Below, one piece after another: positions 5,882 to 23,821 of a DNA stretch of 64,000 bases; the first letter of the stretch is position 1; every line of letters starts with the position of its first letter. The DNA is from an uncultured Pelagibacteraceae bacterium (lineage in GTDB: Bacteria > Pseudomonadota > Alphaproteobacteria > Pelagibacterales > Pelagibacteraceae): the NCBI GenBank assembly GCA_902632445.1, contig CACPCL010000003.1, forward strand, positions 1-64,000, read 5' to 3'. Both the position numbers and the translations under genes were made by a program. The notes beneath the pieces are model-generated. The model saw only the letters and a list, made by a program, of their open reading frames with translations. It searched no databases and was not told the DNA's origin.

Positions 5882-6802
5882 TTAAGCACCTATAGCAACT
5901 GGATTTTCATAAGAATTTTGATTTTGATTTTCTATATTTTCAAAATTTACAATACTCCAATTGGCTTTATCAGAAAAAAACTTTTTCAAGAGTTTATTAG
6001 TTAAAGCGTGCCCACCTTGAGATGTTTTTATAAGACCAAAAATTCGGTTTCCGGAAAGCATAATATCGCCTAAACAATCAAGAATTTTATGATAAACAAA
6101 TTCATGTCTGTTCCTTAAACCGTCATCATTTAAAATTTTATTACCTTGCACAACTATTGCATTATCAAGAGATCCTCCCTTAGCTAAACCCATCCTTTTT
6201 ATGCTATCTATATCTTCATATAGACAAAAAGTTCTAGAGTTGTAAATTGGAGTTAAATCATCATTGCTAAGTTTGAATTCTTTTCTTCTAGTTCTGATTA
6301 AAGGATTATTGAAGATTAATTCAAAATCTATAATTAAATCCTGACTAAGAGGTTCTATTGAAATAAATTTTTTTCCATCAAATACTTCAACTTTTTTTAA
6401 TACCTTAATAAATTTTCTTGGTTCATTTTGTTCTTCTACTCCCACAGATCTAATTGCATCAACAAAATCAACAGCTGATCCATCCATGATTGGTATTTCT
6501 GGAGCATCAACTTCTACTAATACATTGTCGACACCCTCACCATAAAAAGCCGCCATTAAATGTTCTACTGTTGAAACACTAACTCCATTATCATTTATTA
6601 ATTTAGTGCACAAAACTGGTTCAACAACATTTTTAAAGTTCGCGTGAATAATGTTATTATTTTTAACATCAACTCTTTTAAAAACTATACCAGAATTTTG
6701 TTTAGAAGGTTTTATTGTTAAATTTACTTCTTTACCGTTATGAAGCCCAATACCCTTAAGATTTATTTTTTCTCTCAGGGTTTTTTGATTAATTTTTGAC
6801 AT
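5882..6802 (-). CDS. lpxC: UDP-3-O-acyl-N-acetylglucosamine deacetylase LpxC
   Basis: TLREKINLKGIGLHNGKEVNLTIKPS, STVEHLMAAFYGEGVDN, HEFVYHKILDCLGD metal-site motif. Confidence 0.96.
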   Translation of the reverse strand: MSKINQKTLREKINLKGIGLHNGKEVNLTIKPSKQNSGIVFKRVDVKNNNIIHANFKNVVEPVLCTKLINDNGVSVSTVEHLMAAFYGEGVDNVLVEVDAPEIPIMDGSAVDFVDAIRSVGVEEQNEPRKFIKVLKKVEVFDGKKFISIEPLSQDLIIDFELIFNNPLIRTRRKEFKLSNDDLTPIYNSRTFCLYEDIDSIKRMGLAKGGSLDNAIVVQGNKILNDDGLRNRHEFVYHKILDCLGDIMLSGNRIFGLIKTSQGGHALTNKLLKKFFSDKANWSIVNFENIENQNQNSYENPVAIGA

Positions 6803-6869: not shown

Positions 6870-8063
6870 TTATTTAAAAATATATTCAAAGAATCTCGAT
6901 ATTATTGATTTTTTTTCATGAATTATTGGGACTGCCTCTTTTTTCCACCCATATTGAACAAGCTTATTTATATCATTATAGAAAATTTCTTCTGTCGGTG
7001 GATCAATCAATTTTGTCATGTCTCCTTTATTTTGTGAAAAAGATTCGATGAAGATTTTTTGAAAACAATCAATGTTAATCTTATCTTCAATTTTTAAAAA
7101 GATTGGTATATTTTTGTTATAAAAGCTTACGACATTTATATTTTTAAATAAAATAATTTCAACTAATTCTTTAATTCTTGCTAAAGCTATATCATAAAGT
7201 AATTTCTTCTTTATTTTTCTGAAGCTTTGATCTTGAAAAAATTTGTTTTCTATTAATTCATTTTCTAAATCATTTGAAGAAAAATTTATTTTTTTTAAAA
7301 TATTTTGAATTATTTCTTTTTTTAAGGGAACAATCTTAGATATATCTTTTATTATAATGTCAGAGCCAAAGTCGAAATTTTGCGTAAATTTAAGAGCTGA
7401 ATTTTCAAAAAATATTATTTGAGATTTATTCTTGTTAATATCAATCTTAAAAAATGTTTCTAATTTTGAATTTTCATTGATTAAATTTACTCCTTCGATA
7501 AAATTTTTCGAAATAATTTTTTTGATTCTTAAGTTACACTTGTTAAAAATATTTCTAATATTTTTATAATCGTTATTATTAATTAAAAAAAAAGATAACT
7601 CATGTGAATAGAATTCTCCGAATAACCCAATGGGTAAATTTTCAATATTTTTTTTATCAAGATTATATTTAGAATTAAAAATATGAAGTATGGTTTTGTG
7701 TTCTTCAATTTCATTTATCTTTGACTTTAAAGAATTGATAATATAAGTAATATTTTCTTTAACTAATTGAGATCCATTTAACTTTTTATATCCACTAAAA
7801 TTGATTAAATAACAATTAAAATTATTTAATATAAGGATTGCTTCCTTGAACACTATATTTAATTTTTGTTCAATATTAAAAATATTCTTTTTTAAAATAC
7901 TACACACTAAATTTAAATCTGATATTTGATTATTTAAAATACCTTGGATTGGGACTGTGTCTGAAAAAAGTAATTTAAAATTATTATTTTGTTTTTCTCC
8001 GACTGTAAAAATAAAATCGGTGGTATTAATTTCAACAAAAAGTTTAGGTGAATTAGTGATCAT
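6870..8063 (-). CDS. ftsA: Highly divergent FtsA-like cell division protein
   Basis: Position ftsQ-ftsA-lpxC; alignable segment FFENSALKFTQNFDFGSDIIIKDIS; C-terminal amphipathic helix KKSIISRFFEYIFK. Actin-fold nucleotide motifs are degenerate (see findings). Confidence 0.75.
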   Translation of the reverse strand: MITNSPKLFVEINTTDFIFTVGEKQNNNFKLLFSDTVPIQGILNNQISDLNLVCSILKKNIFNIEQKLNIVFKEAILILNNFNCYLINFSGYKKLNGSQLVKENITYIINSLKSKINEIEEHKTILHIFNSKYNLDKKNIENLPIGLFGEFYSHELSFFLINNNDYKNIRNIFNKCNLRIKKIISKNFIEGVNLINENSKLETFFKIDINKNKSQIIFFENSALKFTQNFDFGSDIIIKDISKIVPLKKEIIQNILKKINFSSNDLENELIENKFFQDQSFRKIKKKLLYDIALARIKELVEIILFKNINVVSFYNKNIPIFLKIEDKINIDCFQKIFIESFSQNKGDMTKLIDPPTEEIFYNDINKLVQYGWKKEAVPIIHEKKSIISRFFEYIFK

Positions 8064-8066
8064 TCC

Positions 8067-8726
8067 TTATTTTAAAATAAGTTGATCATTAATTCTATAA
8101 TCAAAAATTTTATATTTTTCAAAATTTTGTTGATCTTTTACGCCTAAAAAATTTTTTAAACTTTTTGTATAATTTTTTATTGGTAATTTTATAGTTTGAT
8201 TCTTTTCAGTAACTATATCCCATCTTTTTGACTCAAAGTAATAAATTTTTTTGATGATACCGAAAGGAAAATTATTTTTTTTTAAATTTTTATAAAATAT
8301 TTCGAAATTTTCTTTATTGCTAAAAACTGTTGGTAAGCCTTCATAATCTTTTAAGGGTATAAAATTAATTAAATCGTATTTATCAGTAAAATAATATTTA
8401 TCTTTTTTATCTTGTAAAATAACGATTGGCTTTTTTTCAAAAATTTTTATTTTGACTTGATTAGGGTAAATTTTTTTTATTTCAAAACTTTCAATAAAAC
8501 TAATCTTCTTTAATTCTTTTTTTATGTGGTTATTTTGCAATAAGAAAAGATTTTTATCATACAAAAAATCAGTGGCATTTTTAAGTTCTGAAATATCTAT
8601 GATTTGGTAATTTTCGAAAATTACTTTCTCTATTTTATATTTCAAATTTATTTTTAGATTTATATTATTATTATAAGTACTTAGTAAGAGAAATAGGGCT
8701 AGAGCAAAAAAAAAACGTTTTTTCAT
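8067..8726 (-). CDS. ftsQ: Cell division protein FtsQ/DivIB
   Basis: Short N-terminus, single TM segment, POTRA-like KIEKVIFENYQIIDISELKNA...FIESFEIKKIYPNQVKIKIFEKKPIVI; position between ddl and ftsA. Confidence 0.85.
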   Translation of the reverse strand: MKKRFFFALALFLLLSTYNNNINLKINLKYKIEKVIFENYQIIDISELKNATDFLYDKNLFLLQNNHIKKELKKISFIESFEIKKIYPNQVKIKIFEKKPIVILQDKKDKYYFTDKYDLINFIPLKDYEGLPTVFSNKENFEIFYKNLKKNNFPFGIIKKIYYFESKRWDIVTEKNQTIKLPIKNYTKSLKNFLGVKDQQNFEKYKIFDYRINDQLILK

Positions 8727-16513: not shown

Positions 16514-19273
16514 TTAATAACCTTTAATTATTTTTTTACTCAAATTATTTAAGCCGGTTGCGTTTGAACCCTTAATCATCAGATAATCATTATTAGCTAT
16601 AATATTTTTTAAAATAAAATCTACATCTTCATCATGTTGAAAAATATTGCCTCGCTTGTTTTTATTAATATACCTATAAGTAGCTAGTGTTTTATTACCT
16701 TTTACAAAGACTTTATCAATATCTGAGTTGTTAATAACTTGAGATAAATCCGTATGGTACTTAGTGGAATTTTTACCTAATTCTAGCATATCTCCAAGGA
16801 GTAAATACTTCTTACAATCATGTTTTTTTAAAGATTTGAAATTACTAATTGCATTTTTAACTGATAGTGGATTTGCATTATAACTTTCGTCAATTAATCT
16901 AAAATTTTTCTTATATCTTTTGACTAAATGAATTTTTCCCCTTCCCTCAGTTGGACGATAATTTTTAAAATTTTTTATGATCTTGTTTATATCTAGATTT
17001 AACACTTTCAATAATGCAAGCGATGAAAGTACGTTATGAACATTTATATCCTTTAACTTGAATTTAAAAATTTCATTTTTAACTCTCACAACTAATTTAG
17101 AAAAATTTTCATTTTTTAAAAATTTTACTAAAACAATGTCCGATTTTTTATTTTTTCCAAAAGATACTATTTTAATTTTTTTAAATTTTGCTTTTTTTTC
17201 CAAATAATGAAAAAATTTATCATCACGATTAAGTATTATAGAACCATCTTTTTGAATATTGTTAATTATTTCTCCTTTTGCGTCTGCTATACCTTTTATA
17301 CTTTTGAAATTTTCTATATGGGCTTCACCTATATTGGTTATTATACCTATGTCGGGTTTTATTAATTTTGAAAGATTATTTATTTCGCCTGATTTACTCA
17401 TGCCGACTTCAAATACACCGAATCTATGAACTACTTTTAAATTTGATAAACTTAAAGGTACACCAAATTGATTATTATAAGACTTCGGTGAAGAACATGT
17501 TTTTCCGAAATTTTGCAGTAATTCTTGAATTAAGTTTTTTAATGAAGTTTTACCTGCACTACCAGTTACAGCAATTATTTTTGCTAATGAGTTTTTTCTT
17601 TTTAATAAAGAAAATTTTTTTAAAAAATTAATTTCACTTGAAACTTTAAAAGTTTTGTTTTCAAAATTTTTTATCTTTTTTGATGAGACAATATATTTTG
17701 CTCCTCTTTTAAGAGCTTTGCCAACAAATTTTACACCATCATTATTTTTCCCTTTTATTGTTAAAAATAAATTATTTTTTTTAACCTGCCTTGAGTCTAT
17801 AGCTAATCCATGAAATTTTTTTATTTTACGTTTTTTTATTATTTCTTCTAAAATTTTTGCGTTTTCTAAATAATTTTGTTCTATTTTAGAAATTTTCTTT
17901 GCTTTAAAATTTAATTTCTTAATGATTTGCTTATCGGAAATACTGAAAATTCTTTTCTTATATATTTGTTGATCTTCATGACCTTTCCCAGAGACCAAAA
18001 TTATCTCATTTTGGCTAGCATTTGAAATTGCAAACCTGATTGCCCCGGCTCTATTTCCGATATTAAATTTATTTTTATTTTTAATATTTTTTAAAATAAC
18101 ATTTCTTATTTTTTTGGGATCTTCTTGTCTTGGATTATCGTCAGTGACATAAATTTTTTTGCAATTTAAACTTGCTATCTTAGCCATTAAAGGTCTTTTT
18201 TTTTGGTCCCTATCTCCTCCACATCCGAATACTAAAGAAATATTTTCTCCATATAAATTTTTGATAGCACTAATAGATTTTAATAGAGCATCAGGTGTAT
18301 GCGCATAGTCTATAAATACTTTAATATTATTCGGAAATGTTTTAATAAGTTCCAATCTTCCATCAACACCTTTAATTTTATTTAAAGATTTAAAAATTTT
18401 ATTTTCATTTACTTTACATATTTTTGCTGCTGCTATTGCCATAGATAAATTTTTTAATTGAAAATCATTCATCTTCAAATTTTTTAATTTTTTAAGCTTC
18501 TTTTCAATATTACATATGTCGATTAATTTTAATTTTCTTTTTTTTGCTATTTTTTTTAAAATTTTAAATTCTTTGATTGCAGAATCAGAGATAATGTAAC
18601 TTTTTTTAGTAAGAATTTTTTTAAAAAGGAGGAGTTTAGAAGTTAAATATGATTTCATATTTTTATGATAATCAAGATGATCTTGACTAAAATTGGTAAA
18701 AATTCCTGCTTTAAATTTTAAATCGTTTAGCCTTTTTTGATCTAAGCCATGACTTGAAGCTTCAATAATAACATTATCAATTTTTTTTAATTTAATATCT
18801 TTAAGTATTCTATGGGTGGAAATTGTATCTGGAGATGTAAGATCAGATTTAATCAATTTATTTTTATACTTTATTCCTAAAGTGCCAACAGATGCTACAG
18901 ATACATTGTTTAAATTCAAAATTTGATAAAATAAATCTGCGACGGAAGTTTTGCCATTAGTGCCAGTAACAGCGATAATATTTTTGGGTTTTAAATTATA
19001 AAACTTTGAAGAAATTCTACTTAAAAACTCTCTTATGTTATTAATCTTCAACGTTGGTATTTTATTATTATTATATTTACTTTTTTTAGAACATACTATT
19101 AAAACTGCTCCATTTTTAATTGCTTCGTTTATAAATTTTTCACCATTATTTTTTTTGCCTTTGATTGCAAAAAAAATATACCCTCTTTTTACTTTTTTGC
19201 TATTAGTTGCTAAACCAGTAACCTTAATTTTTTTTCTGGTGTAGAAATTTTTAATTAGTTTTTTCAGCAACAT
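16514..19273 (-). CDS. murE/murF: Bifunctional MurE (meso-DAP-adding) - MurF fusion ligase
   Basis: 919 aa single ORF; MurE half with AVTGTNGKTSVADLF, HDHLDYH-like QDHLDYHKNM, VTDDNPRQEDP, SGKGHEDQQ; MurF half with AVTGSAGKTSLKNL, SYNNQFGVPLSL, DESYNANPLSVKNA, LLLGDMLELG. Confidence 0.95.
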   Translation of the reverse strand: MLLKKLIKNFYTRKKIKVTGLATNSKKVKRGYIFFAIKGKKNNGEKFINEAIKNGAVLIVCSKKSKYNNNKIPTLKINNIREFLSRISSKFYNLKPKNIIAVTGTNGKTSVADLFYQILNLNNVSVASVGTLGIKYKNKLIKSDLTSPDTISTHRILKDIKLKKIDNVIIEASSHGLDQKRLNDLKFKAGIFTNFSQDHLDYHKNMKSYLTSKLLLFKKILTKKSYIISDSAIKEFKILKKIAKKRKLKLIDICNIEKKLKKLKNLKMNDFQLKNLSMAIAAAKICKVNENKIFKSLNKIKGVDGRLELIKTFPNNIKVFIDYAHTPDALLKSISAIKNLYGENISLVFGCGGDRDQKKRPLMAKIASLNCKKIYVTDDNPRQEDPKKIRNVILKNIKNKNKFNIGNRAGAIRFAISNASQNEIILVSGKGHEDQQIYKKRIFSISDKQIIKKLNFKAKKISKIEQNYLENAKILEEIIKKRKIKKFHGLAIDSRQVKKNNLFLTIKGKNNDGVKFVGKALKRGAKYIVSSKKIKNFENKTFKVSSEINFLKKFSLLKRKNSLAKIIAVTGSAGKTSLKNLIQELLQNFGKTCSSPKSYNNQFGVPLSLSNLKVVHRFGVFEVGMSKSGEINNLSKLIKPDIGIITNIGEAHIENFKSIKGIADAKGEIINNIQKDGSIILNRDDKFFHYLEKKAKFKKIKIVSFGKNKKSDIVLVKFLKNENFSKLVVRVKNEIFKFKLKDINVHNVLSSLALLKVLNLDINKIIKNFKNYRPTEGRGKIHLVKRYKKNFRLIDESYNANPLSVKNAISNFKSLKKHDCKKYLLLGDMLELGKNSTKYHTDLSQVINNSDIDKVFVKGNKTLATYRYINKNKRGNIFQHDEDVDFILKNIIANNDYLMIKGSNATGLNNLSKKIIKGY

Positions 19274-22309: not shown

Positions 22310-23821
22310 TTAAAACTTTTGTCTTCTTAAAAATGCAGGAATTTCAAAATCCTCTTCTTCAATTGGTTCCTGATCAAATAATTGCTGGGTATCATTATCC
22401 TCTTTTAAATTATTTGGTTCAGAGTCTAATTTCTCTTGCTCCTCTGAAAAAAGTTTGGGAGTATTTTCTTCTAATAGACTTTCCCTATCAAAACTTCTTT
22501 CTTGGGATATGGTTTCATCAATATTGTTATTGTTTTCTATATAAGACGCACTTTCTATAGAAACACCTGAGGGTATTTCACTCGTGCTATTTTGATTTAA
22601 TAGATTATTCTCAGCAATAAAATTTTCCTCCGTATTTTCAAAACTGTCTATCAGGGAATTTTGCTCTTCGATATTTTTTACCTCATAGCTTTCATCAAGT
22701 TTTAAAGCTGTAGCTCCGTCTATAGAATTTAAAACATTTTTTTCAACATTATTATTGTTAAATAAACTATCATTTTCGTTTTTATAGCTTCTGCTTGCTG
22801 AAGAACTGCCTACAGTTGAATTATTGTTTACTAAATTTAAATATGGTTTTGCTTCACTTCCATGTAGAGCTGTTGCAACAATCGATACTCTTATCTTGCC
22901 ATTCATATTTTCATCTTTTATAGCTCCAAATATTAATTCTGCCTCTGGATCTACCTCTGCTCTAATCTTATTGACAGCTTGATCTACTTCAAATAATTTA
23001 ATGTCACTACCACCGGTAATATTAACCAGCAATCCTTTTGCTCCCTGTAAAGTATATTCGTCGATTAATGGATTATTTAAAGCTAGTTCAGTTGCAACCA
23101 TAGCTCTGTTGTCTCCATCTGCTTCTCCTGTTCCCATCATAGCTTTACCGCTTGAACTCATGACAGTTTCAACGTCAGCGAAATCTAAATTAATCATACC
23201 CGGTCTTACCATTAAGTCAGTGATACTTTGGACTCCGTGTTTTAAAACATCATTTGACAAATTAAAAGATTCCTCAAATCCAGTCGTCTCATTTGCAATT
23301 TTAAAAAGATTTTGATTTGGAACAACTATTGTTGTGTCTAAGTGTTTTTTTAATTCCTCTAATCCAGCAATAGCACGTCTCATTCTTTTTGGACCTTCAT
23401 AGGTAAAAGGTAAAGTTGTTACACCTACTGTTAAGATATTCATCTCTCTCGCAGCCCTAGCAATAACATGTGAAGCACCTGTTCCTGTTCCACCGCCCAT
23501 TCCTGATGCAATGAAAACCATATTACTACCTTGAATATAATTTACTATTTCGTTTATTGACTCATCAGCTGCAGCTTGACCGATATCATGTTTGGCACCT
23601 GCACCTAATCCTTTAGTTAAATTCATTCCAATTTGTATTTTAGCATCTGCTTTACTCATTTTGAGATCTTGAGCATCTGTATTTACTGCTACAAATTCAA
23701 CTCCTTGCATTCCTGCTTCGATCATTGCATTAATAGCATTACCGCCTGCCCCTCCGACACCCAAAACAAGAATTCTAGGTTTTAATTCTCTTAACTCTCC
23801 GCCACCAACATTTATACTCAT
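22310..23821 (-). CDS. ftsZ: Cell division GTPase FtsZ
   Basis: VLGVGGAGGNAINAMIEAGMQGVEFVAVNTDAQDL, GMGGGTGTGASHVIA tubulin signature, N/E-rich linker, C-terminal peptide FEIPAFLRRQKF. Confidence 0.98.
   Translation of the reverse strand: MSINVGGGELRELKPRILVLGVGGAGGNAINAMIEAGMQGVEFVAVNTDAQDLKMSKADAKIQIGMNLTKGLGAGAKHDIGQAAADESINEIVNYIQGSNMVFIASGMGGGTGTGASHVIARAAREMNILTVGVTTLPFTYEGPKRMRRAIAGLEELKKHLDTTIVVPNQNLFKIANETTGFEESFNLSNDVLKHGVQSITDLMVRPGMINLDFADVETVMSSSGKAMMGTGEADGDNRAMVATELALNNPLIDEYTLQGAKGLLVNITGGSDIKLFEVDQAVNKIRAEVDPEAELIFGAIKDENMNGKIRVSIVATALHGSEAKPYLNLVNNNSTVGSSSASRSYKNENDSLFNNNNVEKNVLNSIDGATALKLDESYEVKNIEEQNSLIDSFENTEENFIAENNLLNQNSTSEIPSGVSIESASYIENNNNIDETISQERSFDRESLLEENTPKLFSEEQEKLDSEPNNLKEDNDTQQLFDQEPIEEEDFEIPAFLRRQKF

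Follow-up and report, generated by a model that had tools for sequence, protein, structure and literature searches.

Accounts of Z-ring assembly give a central place to ATP binding by FtsA and to its ATP-dependent polymerisation. Mutations located beside the nucleotide kill E. coli FtsA (PMC10213515). The question raised by the locus described here is what remains for an FtsA to do once its nucleotide-binding motifs have gone. The window, i.e. the whole stretch of 64,000 nucleotides analysed, from an uncultured Pelagibacteraceae bacterium, contains a gene which an earlier note, made from the letters alone, had read as an FtsA without its actin-fold nucleotide-binding motifs, still equipped with a membrane-targeting helix and acting as a plain tether for FtsZ. 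Below, the window's genus is called g1, and g6 is the genus which we take to be Pelagibacter (with HTCC1062, HTCC7211 and HIMB5 as its presumed strains).

Identity, fold and retained parts

The gene forms a single frame with an ATG start and no internal stop. It directly follows ftsQ within a mur/fts (dcw) cluster, and the order ftsQ-ftsA-lpxC is common to the window and to the relatives read (Table 1). Its product matches the FtsA profile TIGR01174 (E=5.9e-26, about 91.4 bits) without reaching the equivalog cut-off of 175.85 bits, and its best solved relatives are FtsA structures, one of which (7q6d) matches residues 10-243 with E=3e-11. With Pfam, SHS2_FTSA was scored at 20.5 bits for a cut-off of 25.4, and the FtsA match was likewise below threshold. 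The protein is the FtsA orthologue of a SAR11 (Pelagibacteraceae) genus and was vertically inherited; its assignment to the FtsA slot by the earlier note is borne out by the two neighbours and by the matches to TIGR01174 and 7q6d.

Table 1. Features of the window relevant to the FtsA-derived protein (residue numbers are those of the encoded protein)
Feature	Position	Strand	Residues	Remark
ftsA-derived gene	6870..8063	-	397 aa	identified by slot, homology and fold
ftsQ	8067..8726	-		upstream neighbour
lpxC	5882..6802	-		downstream neighbour
Former Phosphate-1 loop (EINTTDF)	8013..8033	-	11-17	glycine/(S,T)/K motif gone
Subdomain 1C (SHS2)	7569..7814	-	84-165 (approximate limits)	best conserved of the large regions within the genus
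Former Phosphate-2 loop (DINKNKSQ)	7419..7442	-	208-215	
Retained 2B segment RKIKKKLLYDIALARIKELV	7161..7220	-	282-301	putative FtsZ-tail binding helix
Former adenosine-motif strand and loop	7068..7109	-	319-332	GG(A) replaced
Linear motif GWKKEAVP	6927..6950	-	372-379	region of lowest entropy, just ahead of the membrane helix
C-terminal amphipathic membrane-targeting helix KKSIISRFFEYIFK	6873..6914	-	384-397	predicted from sequence and model
ftsZ	22310..23821	-	503 aa	between mraZ and mraW

The window genome gives only one TIGR01174 match, namely this gene, and the additional matches found in relatives resemble MreB (about 350 aa) or DnaK (about 640 aa) by their length and by the region matched, which speaks against a second, intact FtsA elsewhere. 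The window genome is only about 80% complete, so that an unseen second copy cannot be excluded for this genome; none is present in more complete genus-mates. As regards the other genes of the window, a single frame of 919 aa (16514-19273, reverse strand) encodes a fusion of MurE and MurF. The fusion is also present in g6 (940-955 aa), and the two proteins are split in the genera g5, g7 and g8 and in a second family, f2.

An AlphaFold2 model of the protein, obtained with 75 orthologues, has a pLDDT of 86.9 and a pTM of 0.84. When it was compared with the PDB by means of Foldseek, the first 19 places were all taken by FtsA structures, aligned over the full length (E from 4e-22 to 1e-17, TM 0.53-0.64). 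The next fold match is PilM, at best with E=1.9e-16 and a TMq of 0.47, as against E=3.9e-22 and a TMq of up to 0.64 for FtsA. According to this model, the protein folds as FtsA, with the SHS2 subdomain replacing actin subdomain 1B. An identity other than FtsA was rejected because PilM, EutJ and MreB all rank below FtsA in the fold search.

Three parts other than the nucleotide pocket deserve a description. Of all 11-residue stretches of the protein, the most amphipathic one lies in the C-terminal segment KKSIISRFFEYIFK, with a moment of 0.777 (0.780 in E. coli FtsA; shuffle p=0.03), and the model puts a helix at residues 387-396, in agreement with the amphipathic helix announced by the earlier note. 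In the 2B segment, R296 and E299, which correspond to R300 and E303 of E. coli, are invariant in the 106 genus entries; this region is the putative binding site for the FtsZ tail, and a search for literature naming the FtsZ-binding residues found none. The third part is the motif GWxKEAxP, most of which is invariant in the genus and which the model renders with low confidence, as expected for a linker. Related strings were seen in g9, g10 and g7, and are absent from the outgroup alphaproteobacterial FtsA read (16 ORFs were picked, of which 5 in a wrong frame were left out).

Nucleotide motifs in the window protein and its relatives

In the alignments by phmmer and by MAFFT, VEINTTDF falls at Phosphate-1, DINKNKSQ at Phosphate-2 and NIPIFLKIEDK at the adenosine strand and loop. 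Set against E. coli FtsA, the protein has EINTTDF for EIGTAKV, DINKNKSQ for DIGGGTMD and, in the strand leading into the adenosine loop, PIFLKIEDK instead of GIVLTGGAA. The three loops contain no glycine, and no Gly-Gly could be found anywhere in the protein. In a feature test, the Phosphate-1, Phosphate-2 and adenosine motifs were all scored as absent. An aspartate persists at position D210 of Phosphate-2 in the window protein, but in just 3 of the 106 genus entries. Displaced loops, the case in which the note's reading would have failed, were ruled out by the lack of a glycine-rich loop elsewhere in the protein and by the full-length structural agreement with FtsA. The note's readings of the three regions were therefore correct, and we infer, from sequence only, that the window FtsA does not bind ATP.

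The loss is not a peculiarity of one genome, and here the analysis goes beyond what the earlier note could see, since the change is genus-wide and sister lineages lost the actin domain by other routes. A protein search recovered intact orthologues, 37-59% identical, from 19 genus-mates. Named genomes, when scanned, yielded 80 loci, almost all of them labelled Pelagibacteraceae or Candidatus Pelagibacter; strain HIMB058 (presumably SAR11 subclade II) is among them. The counts for g1 are based either on 106 FtsA entries, some of them duplicates, or on 89 distinct proteins. None of the latter has Phosphate-1, none has the adenosine motif, 8 have a Phosphate-2-like string and none has all three; with 89 distinct sequences, a loss confined to a single species or an assembly error is ruled out. 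At the position of G16 (E. coli numbering), the glycine is kept in 3 of 106 entries, and at that of G336 it does not figure among the residues seen.

The three motifs are all present in the 15 FtsA sequences from g5, g7, g8, g10, g11 and g12. In g6, the long form (368-388 aa) has intact loops in most cases, all three motifs being found in 10 of 11 sequences. In f2, Phosphate-1 is altered (IDIRADK), as is often Phosphate-2, and the adenosine loop is kept. A tree built from ten neighbouring genes groups the window's genus with g9 in one clade, the sister of which, g10, retains the motifs; the simplest explanation is therefore that the loops were lost on one branch. The TIGR01174 score exceeds the curated cut-off in 18 out of 398 genomes of the order, versus 268 out of 290 across the class. 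Outside the order, a weak FtsA match only (best E from 1e-12 to 1e-25) was obtained for a few other alphaproteobacteria: G793 and G868 (f92), G671 and G771 (f59), G786 (f81), G725 and G808 (f113). FtsA may be lost or degraded in these.

The variability of the loops was also compared between groups. In the intact genera and the long g6 forms, the entropy of the loops is 1.0-1.2 bits versus 2.05 overall, which puts them among the most conserved positions. In the window's genus it is 1.9-2.4 versus 1.65 overall, an above-average variability, and the adenosine strand and loop are among the most variable stretches of the protein. That the loops vary more than the average position implies that constraint on the pocket was released. 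Within the genus, SHS2 lies at the 3rd percentile of entropy, the 2B helix (RKIKKKL..ARIKEL) at the 13th and GWxKEAxP at the 1st; constraint has left the pocket, and these three elements are the parts that bear it.

Short forms in Pelagibacter and anchoring of FtsZ

A more drastic change is found in g6. In many of its genomes (L115-L119, L206-L235), the protein encoded in the ftsQ-lpxC slot has only 220-246 aa. This short form aligns with residues 2-191 of the window protein (profile-profile E=1.2e-12), has lost Phosphate-1 as well, lacks the entire actin domain 2 (2A and 2B) and picks up again at the final helix, together with an amphipathic GFFExFF membrane helix. No confident match to it was found in Pfam or NCBIfam. 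The short forms do not constitute one clade: a single origin was rejected on the ten-gene tree (p-AU 6e-23), which requires at least two changes. Their polyphyly implies either independent losses or gene replacement; the grouping was named after the first tree had been seen, and horizontal gene replacement was not separately tested. In one genome (G053, L117 15270-15962, forward strand), a short ftsA is split over two frames, one for the N-terminal ~75 aa and the other for the remaining 174 aa, which may be due to a frameshift, a sequencing error or slippage.

The window FtsZ ends with the canonical EIPAFLRRQ peptide (DFEIPAFLRRQKF; tail peptide EEEDFEIPAFLRRQKF), its last 11 residues being EIPAFLRRQKF (22313-22345). 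In the window and in those SAR11 relatives in which the cluster could be read that far, ftsZ lies between mraZ and mraW and not after ftsA. A change of the FtsZ tail accompanying the loss of 2B in Pelagibacter was sought and not found, the tail being invariant. Since domain 2, including 2B, has been deleted in Pelagibacter with no change of the tail, 2B may not be the sole receptor of the tail in SAR11. The short forms suggest that domain 1 and the membrane helix make up the indispensable part, and that the FtsZ tail can be taken over by some other partner. A profile search of 16 SAR11 genomes, in which the controls were positive, detected neither SepF (PF04472, 0/16) nor ZipA (PF04354, 0/16); ZapA was found in all 16. 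With SepF and ZipA missing, no known type of FtsZ membrane anchor other than FtsA was found. Division in these cells, which apparently have no other known anchor, thus seems to proceed without an ATP-driven FtsA.

Possible modes of action and known systems

The interpretation that we favour, and consider likely, is that the window FtsA works as a nucleotide-independent membrane tether or scaffold for FtsZ; the failure to bind nucleotide, the binding of FtsZ and the tethering are all inferred. The amphipathic helix would hold the protein at the membrane, the 2B helix would grip the FtsZ tail (DFEIPAFLRRQKF), and SHS2 together with the GWxKEAxP linker motif might contact other divisome proteins. 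Filament dynamics would be supplied by FtsZ, and neither ATP-gated switching nor ATP-dependent polymerisation of FtsA would be needed. The plain tether put forward in the earlier note fits the kept membrane and 2B helices, the FtsZ tail and the lack of SepF and ZipA. Some indication comes from E. coli: the Phosphate-1 mutant FtsA E14R remains on lipid when ATP is absent, and it neither polymerises nor functions (PMC10213515). The first property means that attachment to the membrane is possible without the ATP cycle. The second means that the loss of the pocket in SAR11 would need compensating changes.

Could the gene simply be decaying, and on its way to being lost? Rapid evolution, very low FtsA-profile scores and the truncated forms found among relatives may give this impression, but such an explanation is hardly tenable: frames of 394-402 aa are intact in nearly all genus members (two entries are shorter, one of them on a contig of 896 bases), dN/dS in close pairs within the genus is 0.11-0.34, similar to that of the adjacent ftsQ, and 76 genus proteins have a mean column identity of 58% with 19 invariant positions. 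The dN/dS values and this conservation rule out a pseudogene. Of the outcomes that would have contradicted the earlier note, neither relaxed selection (selection is purifying) nor a better match to a non-FtsA family was observed. A different objection is that the cleft has been rebuilt and still accommodates a nucleotide or some other ligand. Phosphate-2 already departs from DIGGGTTD in T. maritima FtsA (VVNLGYNFTGLI) and in the intact SAR11 genera (DFGHEKTS). Furthermore, the E14 position is acidic in 93 of the 106 genus entries, the former Gly16 is an asparagine in 76 of them, and most retain a serine or threonine within Phosphate-2, so that some ligand site, residual or altered, may still exist. 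We nevertheless regard a rebuilt cleft as unlikely, given that all three loops changed jointly, that the adenosine loop is free of glycine, and that the loops have come to vary more than the remainder of the protein, contrary to what would be expected of a re-used site.

It is also conceivable that the protein is a scaffold of the divisome only, made of SHS2, the linker motif and the membrane helix, the anchor of FtsZ being some protein not yet recognised. The invariance of the R300 and E303 equivalents in the 2B helix throughout the window's genus speaks against this proposal, as does the absence of SepF and ZipA. Part of the evidence does point that way, namely that conservation is highest in SHS2 and GWxKEAxP and that domain 2, with 2B, was deleted more than once in Pelagibacter, the FtsZ tail remaining the same; on balance we judge a scaffold without FtsZ binding to be quite improbable. 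Tethering of FtsZ without nucleotide remains our preferred interpretation for the window protein. For the order as a whole, we lean, by no more than a little, towards a broader view: the actin engine of FtsA would be dispensable in SAR11 and would have been dismantled several times, by erosion of the loops in the ancestor of g1 and g9, by excision of domain 2 on at least two occasions in Pelagibacter and, in a partial version, in the second family, with a minimal 1A/SHS2 part and the membrane helix being kept. If this is true, the FtsZ rings of a highly abundant group run without an ATP-using FtsA, and the conserved FtsZ tail of the species with short forms must have another receptor.

We found no paper describing this motif loss in SAR11 or Pelagibacter FtsA (or dealing with it from the side of SAR11 FtsZ) in the open-access literature, subscription journals being outside the search. 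A large natural clade without the pocket, intact sister genera and a stepwise series that ends with a remnant of 230 aa make the role of the FtsA ATPase testable by comparison, and domain swaps in model bacteria would offer another test. The findings bear on the division of a very abundant marine group and draw attention to a short division protein of Pelagibacter that is missed by family libraries.

Compared with the FtsA proteins of known structure (TIGR01174; 7q6d from E. coli, 1e4g from T. maritima, 3wqu from S. aureus), the window protein has the same adjacency to ftsQ, the same full-length fold, SHS2 (1C), the 2B helix and the C-terminal amphipathic helix; it differs by the lack of the Phosphate-1, Phosphate-2 and adenosine motifs, by its sub-cut-off score and by the presence of GWxKEAxP. 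The FtsA of g5, g7, g8, g10, g11 and g12 belongs to the same family, occupies the same slot and is of similar length, but keeps D/E-x-G-(S/T/N), D-x-G-x-x-K-T-S and G-x-G-(S/A). The short g6 protein shares the slot and the terminal amphipathic helix and, unlike the window protein, has no domain 2. PilM and the cytoplasmic domain of GspL are actin-fold membrane scaffolds, and GspL is a known example of an actin fold that does without nucleotide. PilM, the next fold match, resembles the window protein by its actin/FtsA-type fold; however, both PilM and GspL belong to pilus or secretion systems, have another gene neighbourhood and match less well than FtsA. Finally, SepF and ZipA tether FtsZ to the membrane without being ATPases: their passive anchoring is the working mode proposed here for the window FtsA, although their folds are unrelated to it.
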